A model generated the notes under the pieces. The model worked only from the letters and a program-made list of their open reading frames with translations, had not been told where the DNA came from and ran no database searches. DNA of 37,719 nt from Scedosporium boydii (Eukaryota; Ascomycota; Sordariomycetes; Microascales; Microascaceae), in the NCBI GenBank assembly GCA_002221725.1, contig NJFT01000311.1:1-37719 (forward strand), given 5' to 3'. Every line of letters starts with the position of its first letter. Position 1 is the first letter of the stretch. This document shows positions 5,647 to 30,378 of this stretch, piece by piece. Position numbers and translations under genes: made by a program.

Positions 5647-7325
5647 AGGAGGAATGAGCTTGTGTTGTTTTCTTGTTAAAAGATTGATTCATGACGGGCC
5701 AACTTTAGTCTAAGTTGCGCTCGTATGCTTCGGCTCCTGTTTTGCTCTTCTTAAGCAAGCCTTCGAATAATTAGTACATAATAATAGTACACGTGTACAT
5801 AATTTCTAAATCAACACATCTCGGGATATTCAATTACAGATGGGGCGTACAAAAGCTCAGGACTTGTGTGGTCGACTCCTACTTCGCAGACCTGGTCGAT
5901 TCGTGCAGCCAGCGTACAGCGACCTCATCTCGATGTGTCTGAGCGTCATGCAAGCACAGATTTCTCTTGATAGGATTCATACTACGGCACATACAAGAAT
6001 GAGGTACTTGTGAGAGAAGAGATTTCTTGCTTTCCTTGCACAATGTTCGTCCGCTTCGTCTTGTCCCACAACATCATATGAGAAGAGCCTTCCCCCCCCC
6101 CTCCCCCCCCAAAACGCGTCAAAGAACCATCGGGGAATGGAGCTCCGATCAATTTTCGAAGCAGTCGACTTCAAACATGAGCAGTCTTTAGTCACCTCGC
6201 GCCTGCCTCTACTCCAAGGGAATCTCAAAAGGGGAACGGGAGACATGCCAACCGGGATTGCCCTGATTTCATCCTTTCACCCCCGCCCCACTCCCTCTTG
6301 CGGAGTGTCACGACCCCGGACAAGGTCAAGACAAGGCCTGCTCGAATCAGACAGGGATGTGAGGGAGGGGAGTAGCAGATCTGTGTCCGTTCATGTGTCC
6401 TCCCTCCCTGTAGAGAAGAGGACGCGAGTCGCAGAGGGTGAACACTTCGCAGGAGATCGACACGATATGCATCTAGATTGCGGGGAAGGATTTTTCCCAC
6501 CTCGGACGAAGGATTCCCTCTTTTTTAATATTTCCCCTTTTACTCATTCGAGGTCTTCGTCAAGTACATAATATGTCGTTCCAGGTTAGGATAGGCCCTT
6601 TGGTGTGCCTGGGAAGTAGCCTACGAAGTAAGAATGCGGGATTTTTTGCTTCGCTCAGGCAAGAGGATCCATCCATGGCTTCATTTCCATTGTTTTAGAT
6701 TCTACCTACGTCTGGAATCATAGTTTCCCCTGCCAATCTCGCGGCATTGAAGCCCGGCTCCCGTGGATTAGAGAAGAGATCAATGGCAAGACTGACTCCA
6801 AGTTTACAGCATCATCAAAATGAAAATCACCATCAGATCAACCTGGAATGATAGATAAAGAAGATGTTGACGGGAACAAACGTCAAGAAAAGGATACACA
6901 ACGGCCTGGGAAGAGACAGTTTTTGGTCCCGATACTCGAAGATTGTTCAAATTGACGTTTATTTAATTCGGTTTCTCCACGAAAGAAAGAAAGAAAAAAC
7001 AAATCAGACAGAAAAGGGATGAGAAGCGGGAAAGAGAAGTTGAGAAAAAAAGAAAGAAAGAAACAGGACTTTCTCTTTTCGTTGATTTTTGTTCTCATCA
7101 AAATTAAAAAGGTCAGGATTCGCTCCCTTCCCTCGTGCAGTGTCCTCTCTTCCCCCCAATCAACCTCCCCTTCCTTTCCTCCTTTCCTTCTCCCCTTATG
7201 CTCCCGCAAGAAAAATAGTCCCCTTGGAAGAGATATGACAAGCACTTTAAATAGGTATGCGGGGAGAAGCAAGTTACGATGCGAGGAAAATCTTGTTAAC
7301 AACGAGTGGTATAAAGTTGGTTCGC
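5647..7325. other. Intergenic region between tyrosinase and DUF1996 genes
   Basis: This is the 3' side of both flanking genes, which converge on it. It holds a C-rich homopolymer near 6092-6110 and purine- or pyrimidine-rich runs around 7000-7200. Open frames here are low complexity (Lys/Arg- or Ser/Phe-rich) and show no recognisable domain. I see no gene. Confidence 0.5.
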
Positions 7326-8760
7326 TTATGCCTTGACGATGGAGCCGCCAAGAGGGAGAGCCTGGAGCCCTGTTTTGTGAGAAAGAAACGGTTAGCCGTC
7401 CGCTCTTGGGCAGGAAGAGAATCTCCTTAGGGAGTGATAGGTACTTACAGCCGTCGACGGGCTCGGGAGCCTGCTGAGGAATGGTGCAAGCATTGTACTT
7501 CTCTGGAGGCTGGTAGTGGAGGCCGGCTCCGGCGCAGTCGTGGTTGAGGTTGCATCCCTGGTCCATGGCCTTCTGGAGAGTATCGTCCTTCCAGCCGAAG
7601 ACGTAGTCACCGTGAGCAGCAGAGCCACTGGATAGTCTCTCGTCAGCAAGGTTCTTCCGGTCTAAGCATGGCGTGTCTGAATAGGAACGACACTTACCCG
7701 AGATCCATGGAGTAGATGAAGGGGTCGGAGCCGTCGGTGGGCCACTGGCTCTGGTCGGAGAACTCGGTGACGTTCCACATGAGCTCGAACATGACCTGGG
7801 GAAGCTTGACGGGGTGAGAAGCAGGGCAGGCACCACCACCGTTGGCACCACCGAAGCCACCACTGTAGGCGACATGGGTCTTGTGGTCGACGGAGTCGAG
7901 GTTCTTGCCGTCCCAGCAGCTGTTGGGAGAGAAAGGCTAACGTTAGCATCTTCGCTGCTTGTTGCTAATGGCTTCTCAGGAAAGAAACAAACTTACGTGG
8001 GGAAGATGATGGTCTGACGGATCATCTTGCAAGTGGGGCTCTTGGGGATGGCGACGGTGTCGGAGCCGGAGCAGGGAGCGCCGCCGACGAAGGTATTCTC
8101 GTTGGGGGAGGTCCAGCACCTGTGGCAGATGTTGCCCCTGCTGACCTTGCTGTCCTCGGTGTTACCGGCATCACCGGCAATCATACGGAAGCCCTATTTC
8201 AAAGTTAGCTGGATATCCTGGAGACACAGACACGGGAGGAAAAGAAGAATAAGGAGATGAAGGAGAAGGGATTTCTCCCCCTCTCCCCGTCTTCTCTCTC
8301 TCTAAAACTCCAAGCGAAACGGCTTCCGCTTCATCCTCAATAGACGCACCTTGGCAAAAGCAGTGGTCTTTCCGCTGGGGATGTAGTAGACATCAAGACC
8401 ACCGTTGTTGATAAGCTTGCCCTGAGGGCCACCATTGCCGACCTGCTGGACACGGTGGTACCGGCCGTCCTTGGACTTGAAGAACATGACGGCAGTCCAG
8501 TAGTTGGAAAGATCCTCAACGAAGGAGCAGGACGTGCAAGTGGACTGGGCGGCGAGATCGTGCTCGGCGGGGTCCATGGTGATGTTGAACGAGTTGCCAC
8601 CGACAATCTGGTGAAGGTGGGGGGTGTAGAGCATGCCGGGGTTGACAATAGGGTCGACACGATCGACGACGAGCTGCGAGCACGCGAATCGAAGCATGTT
8701 CTGGCCAGCGACGTTCTGCGCAAGGAGCGCGGCCGCGGCGGCGAAGGAGAGGGTCTTCAT
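7326..8760 (-). CDS. Secreted DUF1996 protein
   Basis: Five exons, read on the minus strand: 8760-8350, 8193-7997, 7919-7698, 7627-7449 and 7369-7326, giving 350 residues. All junctions have good donors (GTGCGT or GTAAGT) and CTAAC or CTGAC branch sites. A signal peptide ends near residue 19 (AQNVAGQ). The body matches the fungal DUF1996 family: RFACSQLVVDRVDPIVNPG near the start, HLHQIVGGNSF, a Cys-rich centre, CWDGKNLDSVDHKTHVAY, then GDYVFGWKDD with NLNHDC. The length is typical of the core domain without an added WSC domain. The family is secreted, Cys-rich and of unproven chemistry. It faces the tyrosinase tail to tail. Nothing ties it to the peptide cluster, and it may be a bystander. 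Confidence 0.93.
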
Positions 8761-14700: not shown

Positions 14701-15114
14701 ACTTGATGGGCTAGCAGCAGTCTTGGCGGACCCATCCCCCCATGCCTCCATTGAAGCGTTGCCTCTTGAAGCTTCCTCCGAAGCCAAAAGACGAGGGCGG
14801 CTTCACTTCCGGACGGGTCAGAAGATGGTGCCACGCTGCCGCAGAGTGGGAATGACAGGGGAACAGGGTGGAGCAGAATGGTCGACCTAACTGAGCTATA
14901 CCGAAAGGAATTCTTCGTCTGCAGAGCCACTCCACCGTACAGGGATTCTGTGGTGCGATGGCAATCCGTCTAAAATAGCAGAGCGGACTGACAGGGAAAG
15001 CGGGGGAGAGTGGGGGAAACAGGATCTTGATCCTTCGTTAAATTCTCCTCGGCCTTTTCTGAACATCTTCACGTCAATTGTCCAGATCATCGTCAACAAA
15101 CTTTTTGCGCAACC
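8761..15114. other. Long gene-free stretch (about 6.3 kb)
   Basis: No frame here shows a recognisable domain or convincing splice chain. It contains the DUF1996 promoter at its left end and the methyltransferase promoter at its right end. A pyrimidine-rich CT repeat lies near 11482-11513. A set of minus-strand frames at 11.1-12.2 kb looks faintly coding but is unrecognised and is treated as a finding. The stretch separates the tyrosinase/DUF1996 pair from the RiPP-type cluster, so it may be a cluster boundary or a region where genes have decayed. Confidence 0.45.
11482..11513. repeat. CT-rich microsatellite
   Basis: An imperfect run of TCTCTCTG and TCTCT units. Low-complexity DNA with no coding evidence. 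Confidence 0.6.
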
Positions 15115-16766
15115 ATGTGTGAGGAAACGGAAACGACGTCGCCAACGAACACGCAATTACAGGCGTCTTTGGCCGCGGACCCTCTGCAAGCAGATGTATG
15201 CAGCCCCCCTCCTGACGTCGTGTAACTGCCCCATTCCGTTTGCTATTTTTGGTTTGTTTATGCTCGATTGACATTGCTTTTTTTTTCCCCAGGACGCCAT
15301 TCGGGACGATGATTCTGCTTACAGTGTTTCGTGGGTTCTAAGTTTGATATTCATGAATTATCTGGATGCCTTGTCCCTAACAGGTTCATTAGGGCGGATT
15401 CCGCCAGCTTCCGAACATCTCTGGCCTCAAGCGTCCTCAACTACAAGTATGTTTATGCACGATGTATCAATACGCCGTCATCACCATCTTGGTCTTCTCC
15501 AATAACGCTAACCATCTCTCCCGTACTTGATTTAGATACGAGGTTAGTTCCAGGAAGAGAAAGAGAGAGCGCTGCGCAATCATGCGCTGACATCCATCGA
15601 CCGTAGAATGGTCGTCGCTACCATGCATTCCGTGAAGGCTCCTACTTAGTGGTAAGTACACATGTACCTAAGAGTGCGAGCTCGAAGCTCCTGATCCTTT
15701 GACGACAAGTGGGAAAGAAAACTAAGCGCGGTTATGCAGCCGAACGATGAGGAAGAGCAAGATCGGATGGATCTAGTTCACCACCTGTATTGTATGGTGC
15801 TTAAAGGCGAATTGTTCCTCTCTCCTCTCGAGGGCGATCCCCAACGAGTGCTTGACTTGGGCACTGGCACTGGTGCCTGGGCGATGGACTTTGCAGAGTA
15901 AGAATCTCATGTCTCCCCTTTCCAGAGGCTGGGCTAACATTGTTGAACTTAGTCTATACCCATCCGCGGAAGTTATCGGAACTGATCTAAGTCCTATTCA
16001 ACCTGGATGGTACGGTGACTCTTTACCTTGCTTCTTCTTTGCTTTTAAAAGTATCATTACTCATGCACGCAATAGGACCCCTCCCAACTGCTTCTTCGAA
16101 GTCGACGATTTCGAATCAGAGTGGCCCTACACAAAACCCTTCGACTTCATCCATGGTCGAGAGCTGGAAGGGTGCATTGCCGACGGTGGCAAGCTATTCC
16201 GTCAAGCCTTCCAACACTTGGCCCCCGGCGGCTACGTTGAGTTCCAGGCCACTTACCCCGCCTTCCTCTCCGATGATGGTACGGGCGAGAAAGGAGAAAG
16301 CGCCCAGCTCTTGTTGAAGAACTTGATCGAAGGCCTAGGGAAGTTCGGCAAACCGCTGGACGTTGCCATCGGGTGGAAGAAGAAGATGGAAGAAGCAGGA
16401 TTCGAGGATGTGACAGAAAAGATTCTCAAGGTCGGTGGCTCAACATGTTCCCAATGCATCTCACCCATCCAATGTCCACACGACTACATTTGGCGTTCGT
16501 GTCGCTTGAGTACTGACTATTTGATATAGGTGCCTGTCGGTCCTTGGCCGAAAGATCCAAAGCTAAAGGAGATTGGAAAGTTGCAGGGCGTTCAGCAGAT
16601 CCAGGCGGTTGAATCGTACACGCCTGCTGTCTTCTCACGCGTTCTTGGTTGGAGCGATGAGGAAATCCAGGTGATCATTGCCAAGACTAGAAAGGACCTC
16701 ACAGACCCAGCGATCCATATTTATATTCCGGTGTATTTTGTCTACGGAAAGAAACCCCAAGCTTGA
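15115..16766 (+). CDS. SAM-dependent methyltransferase (UMTA/LaeA-like)
   Basis: Nine exons: 15115-15195, 15293-15330, 15384-15446, 15536-15542, 15607-15651, 15740-15897, 15953-16009, 16076-16430 and 16530-16766, giving 346 residues. Exon 3 could instead begin at 15393, which sits better after the CTAAC branch site and gives 343 residues. SAM-binding motif I is LDLGTGTGAWAMDFAD near residues 116-131, followed by an acidic GTD loop. The upstream NYKYENGRRYHAFREGSY and PNDEEEQDRMDLVHH segments are typical of the fungal UMTA/LaeA-like group. Exon 4 is only 7 nt. Ustiloxin and phomopsin clusters encode peptide N-methyltransferases (UstM, PhomM), so a tailoring role is plausible but inferred. LaeA-like proteins can also act as regulators. 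It is the leftmost likely cluster gene. Confidence 0.92.
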
Positions 16767-18553
16767 TATGGAGCTGGTGAGTTGACGGTTGGATAAATCC
16801 TAATCCCTTCTCAAACTTACATATTCCTCGCTAAAGATTGGAACGAAATTGAATGACTAGTTAATTGCTCTGGATAACTATATCATATACTTACACCCTT
16901 CAAGCGGCGATGAGACTTTATGACATTTCGATCTTGGCTGGAATATCGTATGTACTACGACCGGCACAGTCCCGCTTGAGCTGGAAAGAGGACAGAGGGG
17001 AAAGACGGACACTTTGCCTACTCGCCTGCGCATTGATGCATTTGCTGGTGATGCGGGTGGATGTGTGACCGTGACTATTGATGATTTGACGATACGCTGA
17101 AGCGTACCGGTGAGGTGGGTGCAGCGTGTTTGAAGGCGAGGAGATGGCGTTGGGAAACCTTTGGCTTGAGCTCAGTTGGCCAGATTGAGCAGTACCGGGA
17201 AGATTAAAGCGACTCCTTCGAGCGATTCCGCACACCGAATTTCTCTTGATGAGACGATTGCAATCATTGTGTATGGGAAGACGCGTATTCAGTAGCAAGA
17301 TTATTGAGATTCAGTTACTGGGTCAGGAGTTGCGTGGTCTGGCTGGGAGTCTGAAGCTCAATGATCTGGAAACTCCTTCGTTTCCTCCGTCTCCCCCTTC
17401 GTGCCCCCAGATGCCCCATTTTGGGTTCGCGTTCTTTTCTCCCCCATAAAGAGAGAACTGGAAAAGGCCCCCATTACCGCCAGCCCTGCCTGTTTTCCTA
17501 ATGTACCGAAGCACGAGCGGTTACACTTCTTCAACCTCAAGCCGTACAAAGCGGCGTGTGCCCACATACCTTTTTCGCTACAGCGAATCCTAACGTTCCC
17601 CCGGAGAAGAGGAGGGTTGCCCACCTTGAGATACAGGGCCAGGAGAGCTACGGCAATGTCTTCATCACGGTCCACAGCACCAGTCCCGCCAAGCGCGCCA
17701 GACGGAGTCAGCTCTACCAGAGCAGAGCTATTTCTAAACGGAGGAGCTTCCCGTAATCCTGAAAGCTTATACGCTCTAAAGCGACGCTGAGATGCTAGTG
17801 TTCGAAGCATACAAAGCACGATTGGTGGCATTGGAATTAAGCTCGAGGATCCGATGCAGATCATGGCTGCTGCCGGTGTTCCTGACCGACCCACAAAGAT
17901 CCGTGAGATATCCACCTCTTCCACTGAAGTCGGCTCACTGTTCCGACCCAAGCCCCAGTTCCAATCCCCTCGAACCCAGCCCGTCCGGACCAGTGTGACG
18001 TCCCCCCTTTCCGCGGAGGCATTCTAGTCTGGACTCAATGACAGAACATGGTGGCTTCGGGCATCAGGCCATTGGTAGGTGAGTCGAATCAAGAACGAGG
18101 GGAGGCATCGGTCCGTTCCCATTTAAGGGGAACGGACCTGTTTGAGAGGATGAGCTTGTCAACGATGAAGCTGAAGGAGCTTGCTAGTTTTCGCTGCATT
18201 TGCCCACATCAACTTCTCTCGTCTGCACCACTTGGTAGCACCGGCATTCTCCAATATGGGGTTGGCGGAAGGAGTCACCAAAGCGCATTCAATTATTCAA
18301 AATAATTTTGTATCAGGAGGCGTACATATAAGAAATGAACACCTCTTCTCCTCGTCATGTCGAGGAACTACAGACAGGCCATCATACAAATTCGACTGGA
18401 GAAGGTACCGGAAACATATTACCATTATCAACCTTGATGAGGAGAGGCGGGGAAAGTTATAATAGCTTGGATGCTCTGTATTGATATGCATTATATGCAA
18501 AGTTTCTTTTTCAACCTCCAGAGACTGCGCCCTCGACTCCAAAGGAAACCAGA
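16767..18553. other. Intergenic region with possible decayed coding sequence
   Basis: No intact gene is supported between the methyltransferase and the first UstYa-family gene. Around 17.27-18.0 kb several plus-strand frames look protein-like but are broken by stops and frame changes. One ends in a stop near 18028 after segments such as GIGIKLEDPMQIMAAAG. The opposite strand has a 197-codon frame over the same bases. I do not recognise a family, and splicing or decay could explain the pattern. Confidence 0.35.
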
Positions 18554-19605
18554 CTACGCAATCTCTCCAGATTCAAAATCTCCATCGTCCTCATGGAACG
18601 AAAACCAGTTATGAATCTCCTTAAACTTATGCGTCATAGCGTGATAAGGATATCCCTCTGGCCTCCTCAACGCCACGAAGTCGTCTTCATCCAGCGCGTT
18701 CTTTTGTTGCCACTCCATGAGAGCATCGTAGTCCTTACATTTATGCTCGATATTGAAATCCGGAAACGGATGGTCTAGCACGTCCGTCCACACGTGCGTA
18801 TACATGTCCGTATTTGCAGAGCACATGATATTTTGCGCCAGAAGCCAGACGCAGTGGGACAAATGCAGGCGGTGCATCTCGGACGTCGTGTCGAACCCGC
18901 CAGGGTACTTGGCCCCATAGTAGTGTTCGAAGCGTGCCTCGCGACGAAGAGCGTCTAAGCAGTGAAGTTGGTGGAATACGTCAACCCGCCCGAAGTAGCT
19001 GTCATTGCCCCGGCCCCAGGAGGGTGGGATGCGGACGGCTGAAGACGGGTCTTTGCCCATAGCGAGAACTTGGTCGCGGCTGAGTGCCACCGGCCGCGTA
19101 TCGTACAGAGACACCCAGGCTAAGTCGACCTCATGGCTAGGTTCTTGACGGTAGATGCTTGGTGGGTTGGTGTTAAGAAGTGTTGCATCCATGCGTTTGG
19201 GCGAGACTCTGATTTCGGTTTCGTCGAGGATCGGGGCTGTATTTGTTAGTAGGTTGTGCGAATGTAATGTTTTGCGCTCCAATTCAACTTACATGGCATT
19301 GAAATATGCCTGAGATAATGATTCCTCCGCTGCTCGTGGATGCGGTCAACGTAATGCATCGATGGCGGTCGTAGAGACAGGGTGAACATTGTGCACGATG
19401 CCAGGAATATTGCTATGTTCAACCAGAAGAAGCATATGGAGTGCCATAATCGGCCTCTTCCACATGTTTGGACACCGCAGGCCAGGGCTGGATTGCCGTC
19501 TAGTTCCCCGCTCTCCTTGTCTTGAGCATCAGTTTCTTCGTTTCTACTGAAACTTCTGACGTGGGAATACTGAGGTGATTTTCGGCTGAAAATGAATGGT
19601 TTCAT
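18554..19605 (-). CDS. UstYa-family (DUF3328) protein, copy 1
   Basis: Two exons on the minus strand, 19605-19293 and 19236-18554, giving 331 residues. The 56-nt intron has a GTAAGT donor and a CTAAC branch site. A cytosolic N-terminus is followed by one membrane helix at about residues 54-77. Beyond it come the SPILDE segment and the paired signatures HQLHC (about 193-197) and HLSHC (about 229-233), which are the presumed metal-binding sites of this family. UstYa/UstYb-type proteins are oxidases that build ether or C-C crosslinks in ustiloxin-type cyclic peptides. The C-terminal tail is acidic. It is divergently paired with the next copy. Which reaction this copy performs cannot be told from sequence. 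Confidence 0.93.
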
Positions 19606-20065
19606 GATAAGTTCAACATCTACTTGAACCTATGAAGGCTTCTGTGAAGAACTTCTCATTCGTAGATGGTGTCTGAGCGGACAAGACTTGGAAAGCGCTT
19701 AACCATACAACCAGACAGACTGGTTTCCTGGTCAATTAGAACATGATCTTGGCCAGGCTCCCGATTTCTCAGCACGCATCAGTTCTCTGTCTCCCGTCTC
19801 ATCGCTGTGTTATTCTGAAGTTACAAGTACCGCGGCGTGGCAGATTAACTATGTTGTCATCAGTTCTTCGCTTGTCAGCCCCCGAGGTCAGCAAACACAT
19901 CAGCACACACTTGGGTCCTCGGCCACCAACATCACCAAGTCTCCCAAGCGCGAGATTTCGGCCGAGTCTCCTTGGTTTAGGCCCCAGGTGCCAAATTCAG
20001 TCTGTCCACTCCCCCCAATATGGACAATTTTCCATCTGTTTTACCAACTTCTTAGAATCGCAGAG
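19606..20065. promoter_or_regulatory. Shared divergent promoter region, UstYa copies 1 and 2
   Basis: These 460 bases separate the start codons of two outward-facing UstYa-family genes, so both promoters must lie here. No factor site is convincingly recognisable. An in-frame upstream ATG at 19988 could extend copy 2 by 26 residues. Confidence 0.55.
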
Positions 20066-20821
20066 ATGGCGATCTACAACTCCAGCAATTGTTCTCGCCC
20101 AGCAGTGTTCACTCTCTTCGTGTTTGGCCTCGTGATCCTCTCATCGTTCTTCTTCATAACGCACTGGGACGGTAGACCGTCCTATCGAATTCTCCGGGAG
20201 GGGGTCTCCGGATCGGCATGCGATTCCACCGGTCTTGGCTCACACCCCCAAACCTTCATCTTCGATAGCCTCCACCCGTCAGAAGATAACTCCGAATCTC
20301 TTCTTAATCAAGCCAAGAACGTATATAAAGAAAACAAAGGCAATTCATTTGTCCAGCTCCGCGAAATCGACGAAAAGGCAAAGCATTATGGCGTCTCTAT
20401 GTTCCATCAACTACATTGTCTCGAGATCTTGAGAGCTGCTCTCAGTCATGAGTCAATGTCCCACACACACCACGGAAGGAGAGAAGAGAGCAAAGATGAC
20501 GATCATATAGAGCACTGCCTCCAATATCTTGCGCAAGTGAGCCACGTCAGTTCTCTTACTATTCAGACCAAGACACTAAGGGCAATAAAAATGAAGGGCA
20601 TTATGTGTGCAGCAGACGATACTATAGAGCCTTCGTTTGTAGCTGAGCTTGAAAACGGGGAGAAGGTTCGCGCAATAAATGGAGATAGCGTGGTGCATCA
20701 GTGCAGGGCGTTTGGGTCGGTATACGAGGCCGTGATTCAGAGCCGTAAGAAGGCTCTCGTGATTGATAGAAAGTTGAAGGCAGGAGATACCTTACGTGGA
20801 ATTCTGAATCTTCATGATTGA
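20066..20821 (+). CDS. UstYa-family (DUF3328) protein, copy 2 (short type)
   Basis: Exons 20066-20536 and 20597-20821 give 231 residues. I chose the ATG at 20066 because it puts the membrane helix at about residues 13-31, as in relatives; an in-frame ATG at 19988 exists. The HQLHC (114-118) and HIEHC (147-151) signatures are both intact, the second leading to LQYLAQ and then GIMCAADDTIEP after the intron. The 60-nt intron (GTGAGC donor) is a multiple of three and contains no stop, so a retained form would stay in frame with 20 extra residues. The copy lacks the usual SP...Y region between helix and first signature, so it belongs to a compact subtype like copy 4. It converges on copy 3 with 130 bases between. 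Confidence 0.91.
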   Translation: MAIYNSSNCSRPAVFTLFVFGLVILSSFFFITHWDGRPSYRILREGVSGSACDSTGLGSHPQTFIFDSLHPSEDNSESLLNQAKNVYKENKGNSFVQLREIDEKAKHYGVSMFHQLHCLEILRAALSHESMSHTHHGRREESKDDDHIEHCLQYLAQVSHVSSLTIQTKTLRAIKMKGIMCAADDTIEPSFVAELENGEKVRAINGDSVVHQCRAFGSVYEAVIQSRKKALVIDRKLKAGDTLRGILNLHD

Positions 20822-20951
20822 TTATCAGTCAATTTGTTCTCTTCCTCTTAGATATAGGACAAACAAATCAGAAATTGCATATCAATGTAATGGACTTCAG
20901 ATTTCTTGCTCAACTTTTACACACATGTTTACCACGCCATGAATCCATATC

Positions 20952-22153
20952 CTAAAGGTGCGTAGAAACAGGAGAATCCGCGTCCTCCGCGGCCTTCTCT
21001 TTGGCCGCTTTTACTCTGGCCGCCTCCTTCTTAGCTGCCTCGGCCTCCTCGGGATGATCCCTCCAATACTTAAAGAACTTATTTCCAGGAAATGCTGGAT
21101 ACTGGTCCTCGATATCCTCCCATGGGGCGTTGTCAAACCCAGACTCGCGTATGATCTCTTCCGCCTGCTCGGCCGTGACATTGTAGTTCCACGCCCCAGC
21201 ATGGTGTGCCTTAGCCCACTCCTGGACCTTAGTGAAGTTTCGGCAAGTGTGCGTAGTGGCGAGACGGGGTACAATAACTTCATTTTGAGGTACGTTGACG
21301 CGGAAGGGCATTGGCGAGACGTCCGCGTGGCACATGAGCGTTTCGCGAATCGAGTCAATGCAGTGGTCTAAGGAGTGTGACATTAAGCTTAAGCATTTTA
21401 ATGTCACAGGACATGGAGATATATTTATGCGTTCACATACCCCAATGAAGAAACTCGAAGCTGTCGCGATTGATGACTCCGTTTTCGTCTGTGACCTCTG
21501 CCAGACCGGGAAAGCGCTCCGGATATAGCAGCATTCGCAGGTCGTTAAGGCAGTGCAGTGTATGCCAGATATCGAGCTGGATTAGGTAGTCTTTCGTACC
21601 GGGTATGGGCAGCGTGGGATGAGGAAGCATCTTCGCCTCCTCTTCGGTAATCTTAGAGATTCCGACTACAAGTCCAAATCAGTCTCCAGATATGACAACC
21701 GTAACGATGAGGTTTTCTACTCACAGCTGTACAGATCGCGCCAAAGCTGATCTGTCTCGTCCGTTGGGTATCCCATATAAGGCGTCCTGTTGAAGAGCGC
21801 CGCATGGAACTTGTATTCTTTGATATATTCCACGGCTTCGTTGGCGGGTGCTATTTTTAGGACACATTCAGCCCCTGTACTCTGACTAAATTCCATGGGG
21901 AAGACAATAAATACTCACAATAAACTCCAAGTGTCGGGTCTAAGAACGGTCGTCGTGTCAACTTCACAACCAGGGCAGAGATGACGACCAGAAGCACAGC
22001 ATGGGAGGCATATAGACTCAAAATATGAGTTTTGGAGTAGAACCATCCATTACTCTGTCGTTGATGTCTTCGGCCGGGATGTATAAAGCTTTCCTTCTCA
22101 TACTCGATAGTCGCATCATCAGAAAAGTCCGTGGATGATCGTTGAGAAGACAT
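20952..22153 (-). CDS. UstYa-family (DUF3328) protein, copy 3
   Basis: Four exons on the minus strand, 22153-21919, 21850-21725, 21665-21441 and 21367-20952, giving 333 residues. Every junction keeps phase 1, with GTGAGT or GTATGT donors. One membrane helix lies at about residues 43-64. After it come YSPANEAVEY, then HTLHC (a Q-to-T variant of HQLHC), and HWDHCIDSIR built across the last intron. The MCHADVSP and THTCRNFTKVQEW segments follow the family pattern. A long Ala/Lys/Glu-rich tail, likely helical, closes the protein and is unlike the other copies. It starts 338 bases from the precursor gene and shares its promoter region, making it the best candidate for a core crosslinking enzyme. 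Confidence 0.93.
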
Positions 22154-22491
22154 GGCTGCGCAGTAGCATACCCAGCACTGTAGCAGCCTCACCTCTGCAA
22201 AAGACTCAATTAACGTTCAATTATAGCCGGGAAAGTTGTCTGGGAGCAATTTCCACCCCACTTTGTTTGTGTCCCTCGTCAAAATGTCAGTCCTATGGCC
22301 CATGTCACTACACATGAAGCCTCTGTTTGCTGACATCGATGACAATGTCAGATACTTCAGTTGTTAAGTGCTACTATCGCCGTATACCCTTATTGGCAGA
22401 TAGATGGTATAACCATCGGATTCCTAAGGGTGAACGAATTCACCTCACTTCGGTCTCTCTATTGCCATAATTCGAACGGAAAGGCACGAAA
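22154..22491. promoter_or_regulatory. Shared divergent promoter, UstYa copy 3 and precursor gene
   Basis: The 338 bases between the two start codons must drive both the precursor peptide and UstYa copy 3. That layout favours co-expression of substrate and enzyme. I see no operator I can name. Confidence 0.6.
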
Positions 22492-22982
22492 ATGAAGTTC
22501 CTCAACACCCTCACCCTGTTTGTTGCGGTGGCGATCGCCGCCCCACGATGTAGGATATCTACCCGACCTGCCAGTTAACGCGAATGCCGAGCTAATTTTA
22601 TGTTTAAGCCAACACTAAGCCCGAGGCTCGCTCCGAGATCTCGGATGCTGGGGACACTGGTTGGGGTAAGCGCTATATTAGTGACGTCGACGTGGACGAG
22701 ATTTCCGCGGCTCTGTACACTGGCTGGGGCTCCATCAAGAGCAAGCGTGACATCTCGGATGTTGACGTGGACGAGATCTCTACCGCTCTATACTCGGGTT
22801 GGGGTTCTATCAAGAACAAGCGTGATATTCGAGACGTCGATGTGGACGAGATCTCCACCGCTCTGTACACGGGTTGGGGCTCCATCAAGAGCAAGCGTGA
22901 TATTAAGGACATCAACGTGGATGAGATCTCGGCCGCTCTGTACGCGGGCTGGGGTGGCATCGCGAAACGAGAGGATGCTTAG
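22492..22982 (+). CDS. Repeat-bearing Kex2-processed RiPP precursor peptide (UstA-like)
   Basis: Exons 22492-22549 and 22609-22982 give 143 residues. The intron is 59 nt (GTAGGA donor, GCTAAT branch). A signal peptide covers about residues 1-18. A lead segment follows, then four tandem units of 25, 25, 25 and 24 residues, each closed by Lys-Arg, the Kex2 site. Each unit has an acidic spacer (DVDVDEIS or close) and a core ALYTGWGSI, ALYSGWGSI, ALYTGWGSI or ALYAGWGGI. A shorter, degenerate unit (SEISDAGDTGWGKR) precedes them and lacks the Tyr. Signal peptide, Lys-Arg-bounded acidic repeats, a Tyr-containing core and UstYa neighbours are the hallmarks of dikaritin precursors (ustiloxin, phomopsin, asperipin). 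Where the mature product begins and ends is not decidable from sequence. The core differs from the published ones I know. Confidence 0.93.
22674..22970 (+). repeat. Tandem 75-bp coding repeats of the precursor
   Basis: Four in-frame units: 22674-22748, 22749-22823, 22824-22898 and 22899-22970 (the last 72 bases). They differ mainly at third positions and at residues flanking the core, as expected of repeats kept alike by recombination and by selection on the core. Confidence 0.95.
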
Positions 22983-23458
22983 GGAGAGAAGTAACTCTGA
23001 CTCAGAAGAGATCAAGTTCAGGGAAAGAAGCGGTGACCCTGTTGAGAGACGAGGAGGTGGAGTTTGCCTTTGTTCTGAACGCACCAACTATTTGTCACTC
23101 TTTCCATCTCGAGGCTCTGCTTTCGAAGTATGTTTCGTCTATCGTTAATCCTGGACTGGCCTTGAAAGGCTGCAATGAATTGAACTTGCTTTACATATCA
23201 TTTGCGTCGATCCCGTGAAAACAGGAAGTCAACTCAAACAAACGTTGAAGGTATAGAGGAGTACGGCCTGAGCGTCCAGCGGACTTTCAACGAGGACATA
23301 GGAGGAACACACTAATTTCCCCTTGTACAAAGACGGCTAGACCCTAACGGTTTGGAAACGCTATCCTCACGTATCACCTAACTTGGCAGAACTTTACAAC
23401 TATTGTAGTTCGTTACCAGAGAACAACAACTTCAACAACTAACTCGATATCATTACAG
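22983..23458. other. Intergenic region between convergent precursor and UstYa copy 4
   Basis: 476 bases holding the 3' ends of two facing genes. I see no gene, terminator-like hairpin or repeat worth calling. Confidence 0.5.
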
Positions 23459-24330
23459 TTAACCTATGTCGACTTCCTCCGTCTTTCCATCAGGAATATG
23501 CTTCCTTCTCCACAATTCTAACCCGCCTGGTTCGTCCCACGCGCGGCAGCGATGAACAACCTCATTCCCCGTCAGCTTTCTACCATCGTCCTTATCTGGC
23601 CCCTCAAGTGTCCCGTCACCGGCACAGACAATCGCTTGTCGAAGGTACTCGAAGCAATGCTCCGCGTGCTTCTGGCCCAGCATTTCCTGGTCAGTAGCGT
23701 TGTACATTAGGCCGACCCAACCGAGGTGCAACTTCTTTAGGCAGTGGAGTTGATGATATGCACTAAGCATATAGATGTTTTGGGTCCCAATTATTACATT
23801 TTTATTGGGAGTCAAGGAGTAATCTTGCGGGTTGGGTATATGAACAAATGCGGTTGTCTCTGTTGCTGTTAGAGTCGCTAACACGGGGAATTTTCTTGGG
23901 GACGCACCATAGTCACGCCAAGCTGCTTCGACGTCCTCGCTGGTTCGGAGGTTGGCCATGGTAGGACTCCGAGTAAAGGCCCTGAGTGTCCACGAAGCTG
24001 CAGATTGACGTCAGTATCAAATGAATCGGTTTTGTAGTAGTCCTTGAGTCACGCACCAGAGGGCACTGGAGTATTAACCCATGCTTGATCATGCTGAGGA
24101 TGTTGGAAGAGATACGCGATGCCAAGGCCCTCGAGCAAGCAAAGGCAAAGCAAAATCCAAAAGGAGATCCTGTAGATTTGTGATGTGGAGCGACTGAATC
24201 GAGAAGGAGGCGAAAAGTCCGACTCTGCTTCGGGTATCTGAGTAGTACTCTTAGGCTCTGGTTCCGACGAGCCTGATGAGACAAGATGGTATGATGGATG
24301 AGACGGGGTATGACGAGAAGGCCACATCAT
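23459..24330 (-). CDS. UstYa-family (DUF3328) protein, copy 4 (short type)
   Basis: Read on the minus strand: 24330-24057, 23997-23908 and 23859-23459, giving 254 residues. The second intron (23907-23860, 48 nt, GTGCGT donor, CTAAC branch) is in frame and stop-free; leaving it in gives 270 residues, and an alternative acceptor at 23866 is possible. One membrane helix lies at about residues 52-74. The signatures HQLHC (codons at 23755-23741) and HAEHC (23668-23654) are intact, followed by VCAGDGTLEGPD and the VVHRCRAWD motif near the end. Like copy 2 it is a compact version without the SP...Y region. It is transcribed away from the TPR-like gene across a 509-base gap. An alternative Met codon lies one residue downstream of the chosen start. 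Confidence 0.9.
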
Positions 24331-24839
24331 TAGGAGCAGTTGAGTAGTTGAAGTGATCTAGGCTTTCTCAGAAATAGCTGAACGGTTTCAATCCTAGAGT
24401 CGGAGGCGTGCTCGTTCATCTAAGCTGAGGAGGTCATCCTAAGACAGCACTACTACACATCTATAGACATTGATATTACTATCTATGTGACTAGCACTTT
24501 TTTTATAAAACTCGATAGTTGAATAATACCAAATTCAAGGCAGTACTTGATACCACGCCTCACAAGTATTCGACATGCATGTATCACAAAGTTGTCAGCA
24601 CACAGCGCATTCAATGCCACGGATAGTGGCCTAGGAAGCGGGCTCATATTACCTGTCTGTATTATTGACGTATCAGGTAACTTCTGCTCATTGGTCCGTT
24701 TTATCCTAGTACCTAGGTATCTTGTTGCGTCTTTTGTGTTGGTCGTTCGTGTTGGTCGCGTTGCATATGTTTTCATCAAACTCTCCACCTTCTCCCAACT
24801 TCATCAAATCTCTACTATCCTAACTACCCCAGCTAAAAG
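24331..24839. promoter_or_regulatory. Shared divergent promoter, UstYa copy 4 and TPR-like gene
   Basis: 509 bases between outward-facing start codons. Short open frames here lack domain content. No named operator is visible. Confidence 0.5.
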
Positions 24840-25580
24840 ATGGCAACTGTTCCCGAAGGGAGATACTCAACGGCTAGCGTCGCCAAATCTGAGGCCGCGA
24901 AGTCGTTCGCTTGGGAAGCGCCCGTCCCCGTGAACCGCTTCTGGGACAGCATCAGCTACTGCGTTAGCCGAAATTTCCTCAACAACTTCTCCGAGCAAGA
25001 GCTCGAACGCCTCCCGATCGACCCGAACAGTTCTGCAAGAGATAAAGAAAAGTTAGAGCACCTTCTTCACCTGCTGCAAGAGAAGCTGGCAACAGAAGAA
25101 GCCGCTGCAGCTCCGAAGACGCTATCTGAAGTCGACTATGCGCGCTGGAATCGCCTTTCCCAGGCCATCTACACTATGCAGTCGGAACTCAGCCTGCCAG
25201 AATCCTACGACACTGTTCGCTTGATGGTGGACAAGCGGCCAGACAAGTCCAACATGCTGCCATTGCATATTCTAGCAGATCACCTCGTCAAGATCGGGAA
25301 ATACGAAGAGGCAGAGGAGACGGAGAAGCCGGTTTTGGCCTGGATGGACGGACACGAGCGCCTTGGGAGAGATTCGCCTCAGGCGATTAATGCGCGCAGG
25401 ATCATTGCGAGGGCTCTATGGAAACAAGGGCCTTCGAGACGAGCGGAGGCTGAGGCATTAATAGCAGAGATCAGGGAGATTATTGATGGAATGGGAGGTG
25501 GGCAGTTTGGTGTTTACCAGCAAGAGGAGAGAAGACATACAGATGCGACGATTGCTGCGCTTGAGAAGGAGGAGCAGTGA
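24840..25580 (+). CDS. Unrecognised TPR-like cytosolic protein
   Basis: A single uninterrupted frame of 246 residues, the only intronless gene in the cluster. There is no signal peptide or membrane helix. The centre and C-terminus are helical and Ala/Glu-rich. The segment from about residue 138 (MLPLHILADHLVKIGKYEEA) through RRIIARALWKQG reads like two tetratricopeptide-type helix pairs. I do not recognise a catalytic motif or a family with known function. Its position between UstYa copies 4 and 5, with a shared promoter on one side and a 58-base convergent gap on the other, suggests co-regulation with the cluster. A scaffold or adaptor role would be a guess. Confidence 0.85.
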   Translation: MATVPEGRYSTASVAKSEAAKSFAWEAPVPVNRFWDSISYCVSRNFLNNFSEQELERLPIDPNSSARDKEKLEHLLHLLQEKLATEEAAAAPKTLSEVDYARWNRLSQAIYTMQSELSLPESYDTVRLMVDKRPDKSNMLPLHILADHLVKIGKYEEAEETEKPVLAWMDGHERLGRDSPQAINARRIIARALWKQGPSRRAEAEALIAEIREIIDGMGGGQFGVYQQEERRHTDATIAALEKEEQ

Positions 25581-25638
25581 TCTCGGGGTTTCAACCAACG
25601 TAATTTTGAAAGTTCGGAGAACGCCATCTGTGTATTTT

Positions 25639-26524
25639 CTATACATTTCTACTCCCACCCCACCATAGATTATCCATTGTGACGCTCTTAACGCCGTTTT
25701 CTCTCGTCCACTCGACTATACTCTCAAAGTTGCGGCAGTAGTGGAGAGTTCCAAAGTCGAACACGGTATCGTCGTGTCTAGGGGTAGTAGTGTTTCCGCC
25801 GTGATGGAGGAGGATAGAGCCGACATCACCCCAGCACTTTAAACCACCGTACGTTAGCCTCTGTTTACCGACAGTAAATACACTTCCTCTAGTGAAATAG
25901 CTGATCTCACCATGACGGCTTGCCGCAGCCGCTCTATGCACTGATATGCTCGCTCCCAAACCAGCGAGTCACTGCCCTGGAAAGCCGCCAGATGCGTGAA
26001 ATCGTGGTCAGCTCGATGGCCCAGCTGGCGCAGGAAATTCAAGCAACCCAGTTGTACTGAGTATTCTGGAAGCGCGAGGATGTTGTTGTTGTTATGTGGA
26101 TCTCGAATCCAGGCTGAATCGGCACCGAAAAGTCCGAGGTCTCGAAGGCAGGTGTCGGGGATTGAGATGGGGTGTTCTACACCAGTCAGCCAAGCGACCA
26201 ATGTCATGTACTCACAAAGGTGATGTGATACCTACCAGGGAGCAGTTCATTCCACGCATTCTCGATTTCGTTAGTTGGCTTGAACCCGTAGTATGGCGAA
26301 GGTTCGGAGGTGGTGAACTCGCTCTCCTCGAATTCAAAGGTCTCCCAATGGTACTTGATGATGCCCATCGCGGGCGACCAGGAGTAGCTATGAAGATCGC
26401 ATTGTGCGTCGGTAGGCTCAAGACGAAAGGCTGAGAAGAAAACCGCGGCCGAGCATAGCAGCAAAAGGGCCGAAACCAACCAAGCTAGATTGAACCAGTC
26501 TTTGTCCCTTGGTCTCTTGGGCAT
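25639..26524 (-). CDS. UstYa-family (DUF3328) protein, copy 5, lacking both HxxHC motifs
   Basis: Three exons on the minus strand, 26524-26236, 26176-25911 and 25836-25639, giving 250 residues. An in-frame ATG at 26539 would add five. One membrane helix sits at about residues 12-33. The family frame is clear: SPAMGIIKYHWETF, SPYYGFKPTNEIENAW, LRQAVMCWGD and a final HYCRNF...VEW. Yet the first signature reads VQLGC where relatives have HQLHC, and the second reads RAYQC where relatives have HxxHC, so all four His are gone. The frame, introns and rest of the fold are intact, so this looks like a maintained but probably non-catalytic paralogue, not a pseudogene. A partner or substrate-binding role is inferred. 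It is divergently paired with copy 6. Confidence 0.9.
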
Positions 26525-26846
26525 TGTTGGGTCTCGCATGCCGAAGCCGTTGAATTTCAGAAAATTCCTAGATATTTCCCTCCGCCGTCATACACCATAG
26601 ATTCACCATGGCCCCCTGTTCTGCGCGGAGAAAATAGTTAATCCACTATTGCAATCATAGTATATAGTGATGGGGTGTATGCACACGTATGCTGACCATG
26701 CATGACCGAGGCATGAGCTGCTTTGGGGTGACGACACTGGTGGGACTTGGCAAAGAGAGTAACAGATTACTGTCCGATATTTAAGTATCGGTGAAGGATA
26801 TATTGGAGATCGAATCGACATTCCAACAACATATCACGACAGGACG
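26525..26846. promoter_or_regulatory. Shared divergent promoter, UstYa copies 5 and 6
   Basis: 322 bases between outward-facing start codons. It must serve both genes. I can name no binding site in it. Confidence 0.55.
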
Positions 26847-27974
26847 ATGACGCCGTGGGCCAGATTATGGCCGCCAGTGCAGGGACATGTTTCTGAACGG
26901 TCAGAAACCGCCAGTGTGACCGACAACGAGGTCGTGCTCCCGCTGCTTGACGAGGAGAAATTAGAGGAGGTGGAACTTGAGAGGGATGAACGAGAAGCGG
27001 CACAGGGGCGTGTAGAGCGCTCGCACTTCTGGCTCTCTAGCTCCACCATTCCGCTTTTCAGCTTTGGGATTTTCATCTTCTCTCTTCTCTTCTACATATT
27101 TTCGTCTTACAACGCGGCGACGGACAGAACATGTCAGAGAAGGATGTGGGCATATAGTAAGTCCGTGCACATGCACTCGAGCAAGAATAGCCGGACCAAA
27201 GACTGACACTTCCAGGCCCGGAGATGGACATTTTGGAGTTCGAATGGCGGCAATATGACTCGGCCGTCATCCCACAGGAGTACTATGGAGCCCCCACCGA
27301 TGAGAGGAGGGAAGCCTGGCATGAGCTATGGGCGAGTAAGCTTACCGGTCCGGTCCAGAATTCACCATGCGAGCTGATGTTTGAGCTAAAACACGTACAG
27401 CTGGACGAATCAGCTTTCCGCACAAAAAATTGCCGGCTGCAAATAAGACGAAAGACCGCGACTGGTGGCATCTACCAGCGCCGCGGGATGAGGAACTTAT
27501 TTCCATGTCTGAAGGCATGTCTCTCTCTCCATCCTCTTCCCCGCACCTTTTTGCCTGGCTTAGACCTAGAGAATTTGGGATTCTTCATATCTAATATATT
27601 CTGCAGTCATGCATCAACTGCATTGCGTCAGCATGCTCTGGCTCTTTGCACACCGCAACGAGTGGGACTTTCGGGCAGTCAAAAACTGGACAGAGGACTT
27701 TTTCGAGATCCACAACATGCATTGCAGCGTGATGCTACTAAACTTGATCAAGTGCCAAGCTGATGTCACACCGGTTCTATTCCAGCGGGCAAGTCACGCT
27801 GTAGGAAGTACTTCTGGGTTAGGGTTAGGGTTAGGGAAATGGGAAATGCGGGATGCAAGACGCAGGTGCAAGAAGTTCGATGCACTAGCTAAGTGGGAGA
27901 GGGAGAACCAGATATGTCCGGCGTTATGCCGGCCGGAGGATATAGCACGTCTTTACCGTCCGGAGAGCGGTTAG
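26847..27974 (+). CDS. UstYa-family (DUF3328) protein, copy 6, with telomere-like repeat in its coding sequence
   Basis: Exons 26847-27156, 27216-27335, 27401-27514 and 27607-27974 give 303 residues. The third intron starts with GC (AAG|GCATGT) and ends in CAG; no GT donor gives the right phase. An acidic N-terminus precedes a membrane helix at about residues 67-87. Then come SPEMDILEFEW, EYYGAPTDERREAWHELW, and the intact signatures HQLHC (27613-27627) and HNMHC (27714-27728). After TPVLFQ the loop before the final Cys-containing KKFDALAKWERENQ segment contains a Gly-Leu run encoded by TTAGGG repeats. It ends the series of UstYa copies and is followed by a 1.2-kb gap before the regulator. 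Confidence 0.92.
27816..27836 (+). repeat. Telomere-type TTAGGG repeats inside a gene
   Basis: GGG followed by three TTAGGG units in the last exon of UstYa copy 6, translated as a GLGLGLG-type run. TTAGGG is the telomere unit of most filamentous fungi. This may be an interstitial telomeric insertion or chance. Confidence 0.9.
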
Positions 27975-29152
27975 TTTTATGCCTTAAGGTACGCACATGG
28001 CGTCATGCAAGCCTCGCGGTGCGGACCGTGATGCCGTTTTCCCCTGACCAGAAGTGAAGTCACGTGGAAGCCTTGCGATGTCCTTGATCGTTCGAATCAG
28101 AGGGGACAGAACAACTACATCATCGAAATCATCACGGAATAAAACCTCCAGAGCTCTCATTTTGCTTCACACTCTTGCCTCTTTCATATGCATCTATCTG
28201 AGTGACGACGGCTACATCGATTGGACGATCCCTACCGTATTTTATAACACCTTTTCGTGGTGAAATTAATTCGATGTGGGAAAGGATCCACAGCTCCCCG
28301 CCCTTTCTCTCCCATGCAGATTTCTCTATCATCACGAATTTGGATGTAGGGTACTTTTGGCAGAGAACAAGCCAATTTGACGCCTCGTATTTTTCTGTAA
28401 GCTGTGGCTAATCTAATCTAGTTCACACCTATCCAAACTCTGTCCCTCCACCCCCACTGTATAAAGTCCCGGCCCGCTCCGGGCTGTCCCACTTCTTACA
28501 GGAAACGCGCAGATCCTCCCCAAGTTACCATATCCGGTATAACCCGGGATAGAGCTTGTCTCCGTAAGAAGCAGGATATCCAAAATCGCCATCTTCACGA
28601 AGAGCAAGAAATGATAATAGAGACTAGAATACGACAGGGAAACGGAACAATATTCTTTGCTCGTTCTTACACCATTCAGGTCTTTCGATTAATGATGGCT
28701 ATAGTGCTGACATTATTGTTCCCCTGTTTCTGACCACCCACCTTGCAAGATGCTGCTGTATGTCGGTTCTGCTTACGGTCTCTCGATGAGTGCGGCACTA
28801 TATTGTGGACGGAAGGTGTCACCAACAATGTAGATTATCTCTTTCAGGAATGTGTGATTGGACTTCGCAGCAGTCCCGCGCATATGAAACCCTTGATAAC
28901 GTCAATTGATCTGTGCAACCGCGAAATGGCGGCATAGGGAACCCCACTTGCGAGGTCGGCATGGAACGGAAGGGATCGAAGTACATAAGGCGGTGGCACA
29001 AGGCCGCCTTCCTCGGAAGACTATTCACTCCTTGTTCATTACATGTAAACTACTTGACTCGCCCGAGGATTGTTAGCCATTACGTTTTGATAGTGCTATA
29101 GTTAAACTCGAAGCCAATCGCCTCACATTCCTCCCTCCCGGACTTCGAACAT
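27975..29152. other. Intergenic region before the regulator gene
   Basis: About 1.2 kb with no recognisable gene. Short frames such as 28743-28937 are unconvincing. It includes the promoter of the bZIP-ankyrin gene. Confidence 0.5.
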
Positions 29153-30378
29153 ATGGATAAGCATGACCATGCCCGAGCTGCGATTGAGGCCCTGGAGCGA
29201 AGGAGACAGCAGAATCGACTTGCCCAGAGAAAGCGCCGTAAGTCATGGGCCACTTATGCAAGCTTGTGGCTAGACACACCTCGTAGCATTTGAGTTCCGA
29301 GTCCTGACGGAATCTGTAAAAAGGTCAACGACGTGCTGAACTGGATAAACAAGCGGCGGAAATGCAGCAAAAGGCCACCAATGAACCTTCCTCTGATGGT
29401 ACTTGTGCTCATTGCCGAAAGTATAGCCTAGATGGGGCGGAACAGGCGCAGGGACAAACATATACAGAGCCAAGTGCACCACATCTGCCTGACCCTAAAC
29501 CTATCACACCCGAGCACGAAATGGTCCAGGAAGGCCCGTGTGTAACCGTTGCGGCAGAAACCTTGTTATTACCGCAGCAAGAGGGCCTGATCCATAACAT
29601 GGATAATATTACATCGCATCTGGACCTTGATTGCTTGGATACGGATGACCACAGGCGAGAACCAGACGCTGACTTTATGTTGGACATGCCCTTTGAAACG
29701 CAACAGAATTTGGGCACTACAACACTGTCGCCGATAATACTGTCATTCCCCACGCCTCATAAAAGCCCGGAAAGCACATCGCCTCAACGAAAGACCAGTA
29801 GCATCCAGCAGCACGAAACCACGGCGGCAGCTCACCAAAACACTTACCAAGCTACCTCACTAAGGCGTTCGAGTCTATCAACACCAGTTATGCCGTTGGA
29901 GCCATCGGCTTACCTACCCATTGGTCTTCCTACTCCAGCGAGGGGGACTCCACCTGTAGGCAAAACCCTCTCGCCGCCGTCTACTACCATTGTCGTGACT
30001 CCTTCAAGCGAGGTTCTGGGCACGGCTTCTGACAACCGCGGGAAAACAGCGCTTCACATTAGCGCCGAGCTCGGCAACGCGCGTATTGTGCAGTTCTTGC
30101 TGGACAACGACGTTGACGTCGATGGGGTTGACAGTTCAGGGCGCACAGCACTGCACTACGCGGCGCGGGGCGCACATGTCGAAGTAGTCTCACGTTTGCT
30201 TGCGGGAGGCGCGGACTCAGAAGCACGTGATTACAATGGGTTAAGTCCGCTGCATGCCGCGGCGGAGGCCGGGTGTGAGGCAGTGATCCGGTTGTTGGCG
30301 CGGGGAGGAGCGGACTTGAACGCTAGTGTAGGGATTAGCCGTGACGAAGAAGCGGTTAAAGAAGGCATTCGGTACTAG
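29153..30378 (+). CDS. bZIP-ankyrin transcription factor (TOXE-like, bANK type)
   Basis: Exons 29153-29237 and 29324-30378 give 379 residues. Residues 16-32 are a bZIP basic region with the NRLAQRKRR core (N21 to R29), interrupted by the intron at codon 29. No leucine heptads follow. The middle is long, polar and Pro/Ser/Thr-rich. Ankyrin repeats fill about 265-360 (GKTALHISAELGNARIVQFL, then GRTALHYAA and LSPLHAAAEAG). A basic region without zipper plus C-terminal ankyrins is the layout of TOXE, the activator of HC-toxin genes in Cochliobolus carbonum. It lies at the right edge of the cluster and is the only transcription factor in the window, so it is the likely pathway regulator. That role is inferred. 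Confidence 0.92.

Follow-up and report, generated by a model that had tools for sequence, protein, structure and literature searches.

What does a fungal locus make in which a short repeat protein lies among six genes of the UstYa oxidase family, and does it belong with the known pathways to ring-shaped ribosomal peptides or to something of another kind? The locus in question occupies positions 15115 to 30378, from the start of a methyltransferase gene to the stop of a regulator gene, in a 37,719-nucleotide stretch of Scedosporium boydii DNA (GenBank assembly GCA_002221725.1, contig NJFT01000311.1, forward strand). This stretch, the window in what follows, makes up the whole of contig G000:C311; the genome assembly has 442 contigs and a size of 42.9 Mb. 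The introns and genes of the DNA point to a filamentous fungus. We are confident that the locus is a gene cluster for a ribosomally synthesized and post-translationally modified peptide (RiPP), built on a Kex2-processed repeat protein (KEP) and UstYa enzymes and of the same kind as the ustiloxin, phomopsin and asperipin clusters. The products of this class, the dikaritins, are cyclised through an aromatic side chain. A preliminary description of the same DNA had proposed a dikaritin-type cluster with its gene list contained in these limits, about 15 kb; the limits were right, and the class assignment is well supported by the anatomy of the cluster and by published surveys. Because the repeat precursor is packed among six UstYa genes, a small ring-shaped peptide is the most likely product, as far as can be judged from sequence.

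From left to right, the cluster comprises the methyltransferase gene (+), UstYa-1 (-), UstYa-2 (+), UstYa-3 (-), the precursor gene (+), UstYa-4 (-), a gene that we call X246 (+), UstYa-5 (-), UstYa-6 (+) and the regulator gene (+). Splice sites were picked by eye at consensus introns, and the models were checked by translation, without transcripts. The resulting spliced models are open throughout, with consensus splice sites and one GC-AG intron. Relatives of the cluster genes were sought within the S. boydii genome only, and published systems are compared on the basis of those parts of the papers that were available to us.

The repeat precursor and its core

The precursor gene (exons 22492-22549 and 22609-22982, + strand) encodes 143 amino acids in its spliced model, with a hydrophobic N-terminus that by eye looks like a signal peptide, and the C-terminus KREDA. 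A truncated, degenerate remnant ending in DTGWG-KR precedes four full units bounded by Lys-Arg (KR), which read YISDVDVDEISAALYTGWGSIKS, DISDVDVDEISTALYSGWGSIKN, DIRDVDVDEISTALYTGWGSIKS and DIKDINVDEISAALYAGWGGIA and measure 25, 25, 25 and 24 amino acids from KR to KR, KR included. The units have DVDVDE ahead of a core of the form L-Y-[T/S/A]-G-W-G-[S/G]-I. Six core residues (L, Y, G, W, G, I) are identical in all four units, and the residue after the tyrosine is T, S, T and A in turn; none of the units contains a cysteine. At the DNA level, the units are encoded by a tandem array (22668-22955, + strand) that Tandem Repeats Finder reports with a period of 75 (score 356) and of 150 (score 408). 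The repeat precursor with Lys-Arg-bounded units of the preliminary description is thus borne out by the spliced model, its four units and the array.

The repeats are unlikely to be a product of base composition: when the window was resampled 100 times under a first-order Markov model, no KR-bounded pair of units at 50% identity arose, a level that all six pairs reach here. Between units, pooled over all pairs, we roughly estimate 0.52 synonymous as against 0.13 non-synonymous differences per site, with a similar ratio in the leader and core parts. Silent sites therefore differ about four times more per site than replacement sites, and the protein sequence of the units has been held. The precursor is present as a single copy in the genome, and a Pfam search with it gave weak, chance-like matches only, all below cut-off (best E 1.6e-4).

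By analogy with known KEPs, the precursor would enter the secretory pathway, where Kex2 would cut after each Lys-Arg. Trimming of the KR residues would leave four pieces of 22-23 amino acids with L-Y-x-G-W-G-x-I near their C-terminal ends, and membrane-anchored, copper-dependent UstYa oxidases would then cross-link and otherwise oxidise this core. The invariant tyrosine is most likely one partner in such a link, and the tryptophan or an aliphatic side chain (e.g., the isoleucine) is likely to form the other end of the ring.

Six UstYa proteins, one of them without the motif histidines

The Pfam family of UstYa proteins is PF11807 (DUF3328). Just as had been claimed, there are six such genes: the spliced models all pass the Pfam cut-off of 25 bits, with scores from 75.1 to 201.5. 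They span 9.4 kb, three on each side of the precursor gene. In the whole genome PF11807 gives 23 rows, eight of them in the window and 15 on ten other contigs.

UstYa-1 (18554-19605, -; 331 aa, 201.5 bits) carries both copies of the HxxHC motif, as HQLHC and HLSHC; its comparison with solved structures gave nothing meaningful (best E 0.7; UstYa-1 was the one member compared). Both motifs are likewise intact in UstYa-2 (20066-20821, +; 231 aa, 80.8 bits; HQLHC and HIEHC), which matches only the second half of the profile (107-211 of 220), in UstYa-3 (20952-22153, -; 333 aa, 175 bits; HTLHC and HWDHC), in UstYa-4 (23459-24330, -; 270 aa, 75.1 bits; HQLHC and HAEHC) and in UstYa-6 (26847-27974, +; 303 aa, 135.1 bits; HQLHC and HNMHC), the model with the GC-AG intron. 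UstYa-3 and the precursor gene are divergent and have a 338-bp upstream region in common.

An alignment thus finds both motifs kept in five of the six proteins. In the remaining one, UstYa-5 (25642-26539, -; 255 aa, 102.7 bits), fifth in map order, the corresponding alignment columns read VQLGC and RAYQC, such that all four motif histidines are replaced and both cysteines retained. It is an open frame, and its match covers nearly the whole PF11807 profile. As to how common such a loss is, an intact HxxHC, or more than one, lies no further than 700 bases from 13 of the 15 PF11807 rows elsewhere in the genome, and one of the two rows without is at a contig start; since introns often split the second motif, these counts are no clean measure of motif loss.

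What the loss may mean can be judged from CctR, a DUF3328 hydroxylase of the cyclochlorotine pathway. According to the available part of its description (PMC12435403), the residues of the HxxHC(x)nHxxHC motif form a two-copper site, the enzyme becomes inactive when the motif histidines and cysteines are changed to alanine, and the helices of the motif are at the centre of its dimer. Judged by their sequence, the five UstYa proteins with intact motifs are probably catalytic. Because its copper-ligand histidines are all lost, we read UstYa-5 as a probable non-catalytic partner, which by analogy may form a heterodimer with a catalytic UstYa protein. Along with X246 and a tyrosinase upstream of the cluster, the degenerate motif of UstYa-5 goes beyond the list of features noted earlier.

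Accessory genes, regulator and flanks

The methyltransferase gene (15115-16766, +) has nine exons and encodes a protein of 346 amino acids that is S-adenosylmethionine-dependent by family match (Methyltransf_23, E 1.5e-20), so that this item of the preliminary description also stands; among solved structures it has no match at 0.001. The enzyme probably tailors the trimmed peptide. X246 (24840-25580, +) is an intronless gene for 246 amino acids between UstYa-4 and UstYa-5; in neither Pfam nor NCBIfam does a family match it over cut-off. A profile comparison gives a weak likeness to tetratricopeptide repeats (TPR; E 0.029). Its predicted structure is of low confidence (mean predicted local distance difference test score, pLDDT, 53.6; residues 1-138 below 50), and the best fold match of this model is TPR-like (E 9e-3), with none at E<=0.001. 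A paralogue on contig C59 (L027 9219-9935, -) is 42-43% identical over nearly its full length. If X246 were indeed a TPR-like protein, it might serve as a scaffold or in binding, which is a guess.

The regulator (29153-30378, +; 379 aa) had been described as a bZIP-ankyrin protein. The ankyrin half of that name holds, with C-terminal repeats matched by Ank_2 at E 1e-28. For the basic leucine zipper (bZIP) half, the profile search gave no bZIP match at E<=0.01, and by eye there is a basic region and no clear zipper. We prefer the term bANK, a class with an N-terminal basic region and ankyrin repeats that includes ToxE and Apf2 (PMC4109984). The protein resembles this class in its sequence layout, as read by eye for the basic region and zipper, and ToxE and Apf2 share with it the lack of a clear leucine zipper and the setting in a cyclic-peptide cluster (PMC4109984, PMC3729494), but the genes described in the available part of PMC4109984 sit in clusters of nonribosomal peptide synthetases (NRPS). 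The regulator would be expected to switch the gene set on.

For the binding sites of this class, the promoters gave little. The Tox-box of ToxE has two matches in the window (5188 and 17900), where 1.39 would be expected; 41 of 100 shuffles have as many, and neither match lies in a cluster promoter. The Api-box of Apf2 has two exact matches, given here without a chance estimate: one at 15069, upstream of the methyltransferase gene and hence in one of six cluster promoters, and one at 31023, outside the cluster. A 7-mer, TGCTGAC, is found on either strand in five of the six promoters (19887, 22328, 24594, 26690, 28705), a degree of sharing that also arose in 9 of 300 shuffles that keep the dinucleotides; the corresponding figures are 45 of 300 for a 6-mer common to all six promoters and 254 of 300 for 8-mers common to three. 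Because shuffles reach comparable sharing, TGCTGAC is at best a weak lead to a promoter signal.

On the left flank lies a gene for a secreted-type tyrosinase (3912-5646, +; 355 aa; Tyrosinase, E 4.2e-48), whose best matches in the PDB are hemocyanin chains and, among chains of single enzymes, catechol oxidase 4j3p (E 1.6e-52). Tyrosinase matches occur on 15 contigs of the genome. By a hand estimate, the chance that one of the 14 other contigs with such a match would have it no more than 10 kb from any one cluster edge is below 1%, and for this reason the nearness of the gene is suggestive. If the models miss no gene, it is six genes from the precursor gene, compared with seven in the ustiloxin and eight in the phomopsin cluster (PMC7329392, available part). 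By analogy, it is possible that the tyrosinase is a distant member of the cluster with a role like that of UstQ or PhomQ.

Between the tyrosinase gene and the cluster lies a gene for a DUF1996 protein (7330-8760, -; domain match 8350-8757, gene extent by eye). In the roughly 6 kb left of the methyltransferase gene (8.8-15.1 kb), no gene was recognised among the part of the frames that was scanned. Eight flank frames were scanned in all. Of the three on the left, one matched (DUF1996); the five on the right are long open frames without a Pfam match. Within the gaps, a scan of 10 of the 192 frames of at least 50 amino acids gave none over a cut-off, and an Rfam scan of the window gave no match. 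The cluster limits are thus plausible, short of proof.

The ten other UstYa contigs were searched for KR-bounded repeats in eleven segments, each some 10 kb long. The script, which also picked up the window and loci overlapping it, gave one hit among them, on contig C222. There, a precursor read from the DNA (L012, G000:C222:5000-14900, at 6716-7165, +) has seven copies of a QYFHLN-x-x-VLD unit, e.g. DPEAAKQYFHLNGEVLD between KR sites, and adjoins a UstYa gene (L012 4698-5228, -). On this sequence basis, the locus is a candidate for a second, different RiPP cluster. By eye only, open frames near this precursor look like a major facilitator superfamily (MFS) transporter and a methyltransferase.

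Known systems and rival explanations

How ordinary is such a cluster? The cyclisation of ustiloxin, phomopsin and asperipin-2a needs DUF3328 proteins, and the survey that collected 7878 KEPs from 1345 of 1461 strains found 1758 of them with DUF3328 genes nearby, on average 1.7 such genes at a distance of 3.09 genes (PMC7329392, available part, as for all survey figures here). Because 1758 surveyed KEPs have DUF3328 neighbours, the combination is common. It is of the ordinary kind even with tryptophan in the repeats, which are highly diverse and contain W in 20.5% of the KEPs with DUF3328. The repeat precursor beside a UstYa gene on C222 means that the architecture is not unique in this genome either. 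Six UstYa genes are nevertheless a high number against the survey average; ustiloxin has two, phomopsin five and asperipin one. The features by which the survey recognises ust-RiPS are all present here, namely an endoplasmic reticulum signal (by eye), Kex2-bounded repeats and DUF3328 within 15 genes. The dikaritin gene list of Ding et al., as quoted in the available part of PMC12048977, names a precursor with a leader and repeated cores, multiple DUF3328 genes, a methyltransferase, a tyrosinase, and transporters or peptidases; of these, the cluster has the repeat precursor (signal by eye), the six UstYa genes and the methyltransferase (by family match).

Among characterised systems, the phomopsin cluster of Phomopsis leptostromiformis (PhomA, PhomQ, PhomM) is alike in the signal-type N-terminus, the KR-bounded repeated cores, the methyltransferase, the many DUF3328 genes and possibly the tyrosinase at some distance (PMC7329392, PMC6514808). 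It differs in its YVIP-type core, as opposed to L-Y-x-G-W-G-x-I, and in having one DUF3328 gene fewer; clusters of this group carry S41 peptidases, and their regulator is a zinc-finger protein like PhomR (PMC6514808), while here we found a bANK regulator and, among the genes and frames scanned, no peptidase. Asperipin-2a from Aspergillus flavus (AprA, AprY, AprT, AprR) shares the repeat precursor, the UstYa enzyme and a Y-T-G stretch in its core (FYYTGY), but is made with one UstYa protein, a transporter and a reductase instead of six UstYa proteins, a methyltransferase and X246 (PMC6514808). Ustiloxin B (UstA, UstYa, UstYb, UstQ, UstM) resembles our case in the precursor, the UstYa proteins, the methyltransferase and possibly the tyrosinase, but has a YAIG core and uses a cytochrome P450, flavin monooxygenases and a pyridoxal phosphate (PLP) enzyme, none of which was recognised here (PMC12048977, PMC6514808). 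From the survey's descriptions alone, the precursor might belong to one of two widespread KEP types, G-5/P-1 or G-6, which are Y-rich with several D nearby, like DVDVDE...LY, and often have DUF3328 neighbours (G-5/P-1 in 16 of 35 KEPs, G-6 in 46 of 49).

The cluster had been called new-looking, with a Y-x-G-W-G core that could not be matched to a published product. The second part has held so far: a limited literature search by title and abstract gave no fungal RiPP occurrence of YTGWG, YSGWG or YAGWG and no report of a tryptophan cross-link by UstYa or in dikaritins, nor did it find TGWGSI, YTGWGS or DVDEIS. Neither 'GWG' nor 'TGW' occurs in the main text of PMC7329392 or of PMC6339444, with figure logos and supplements outside the search, and neither 'GWG' nor 'YTG' occurs in PMC12048977. 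A DNA pattern for the core was uninformative, with 175 matches over the genome and the same number for a reversed control. Any novelty would not extend to the cluster's kind, which is common.

Several points weigh against reading the locus as a RiPP cluster. Since the window is a whole contig, genes past either end are out of view. Neither a peptidase nor a transporter was recognised in the ten modelled genes and the ten gap frames scanned, though no search was dedicated to transporters; the window has no S41 peptidase, and the single match in the genome is on contig C61. There is likewise no peptidase gene in the asperipin-2a cluster or in the ustiloxin cluster of Ustilaginoidea virens (PMC12048977, available part). 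The tyrosinase is some 9.5 kb from the methyltransferase gene, on its upstream (left) side, separated from it by the DUF1996 gene and by DNA in which no gene was recognised, and the cluster promoters are not marked by either binding box of the ToxE/Apf2 class.

Could the precursor instead give rise to linear, unmodified secreted peptides (signals, wall components or alpha-type pheromones), with the UstYa genes serving another pathway? In the survey, 78% of KEPs have no DUF3328 among the 15 nearest genes, and pheromones are among the KEPs. Those of pheromone type, however, have no DUF3328 neighbours with three exceptions, while this precursor is surrounded by six UstYa genes within 9.4 kb, one of which shares its upstream region, and the modelled genes and the ten gap frames scanned showed no further backbone gene of a biosynthetic pathway. 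We judge linear peptides very unlikely, and an alpha-type pheromone precursor in particular was judged unlikely in view of the DUF3328 neighbours and the cysteine-free units. A cluster in decay, formerly of the RiPP kind and thus overlapping with the preferred assignment, is hinted at by the lost histidines of UstYa-5 and by the truncated remnant at the start of the precursor. Open gene models with consensus splice sites, units that keep their protein sequence while silent sites differ, and an open UstYa-5 frame whose match (102.7 bits) takes in almost all of the profile speak against it, and leave it slightly less probable still. We give least credence to the idea that the repeat protein is a bystander and the substrate of the UstYa enzymes is a polyketide or nonribosomal peptide, with its backbone gene past an end of the contig. 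DUF3328 enzymes do occur in such pathways (PMC12048977; CctR, PMC12435403), the contig ends hide the neighbours, and the described bANK regulators sit in NRPS clusters (PMC4109984), but the precursor lies in the middle of the set, and no parts of NRPS or polyketide synthases (PKS) were recognised in the genes and frames scanned. As the right-hand frames have no Pfam match, they neither help nor harm this idea.

Within the RiPP assignment, a more specific picture can be drawn: a line of six UstYa proteins in which copper-less UstYa-5 pairs with at least one catalytic member, a macrocycle closed between the tyrosine and tryptophan of Y-x-G-W, and a ToxE-like bANK switch. Taken together, this is a speculative combination that we consider rather unlikely to hold in full. 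In the available parts of PMC7329392, PMC6514808 and PMC9233826, a Tyr-Trp link is not among the ustiloxin, phomopsin, asperipin, victorin and epichloecyclin products, and a ToxE-like bANK switch of a RiPP cluster is not reported.

If a cross-linked L-Y-x-G-W-G-x-I peptide is made, it would be a new scaffold in the small set of characterised UstYa products. The most interesting element of the cluster is the copper-less UstYa-5. With a natural UstYa protein of this type beside five whose motifs are intact, one could test why such clusters have several UstYa proteins at all, that is, whether these divide the labour between them or have to work in pairs.

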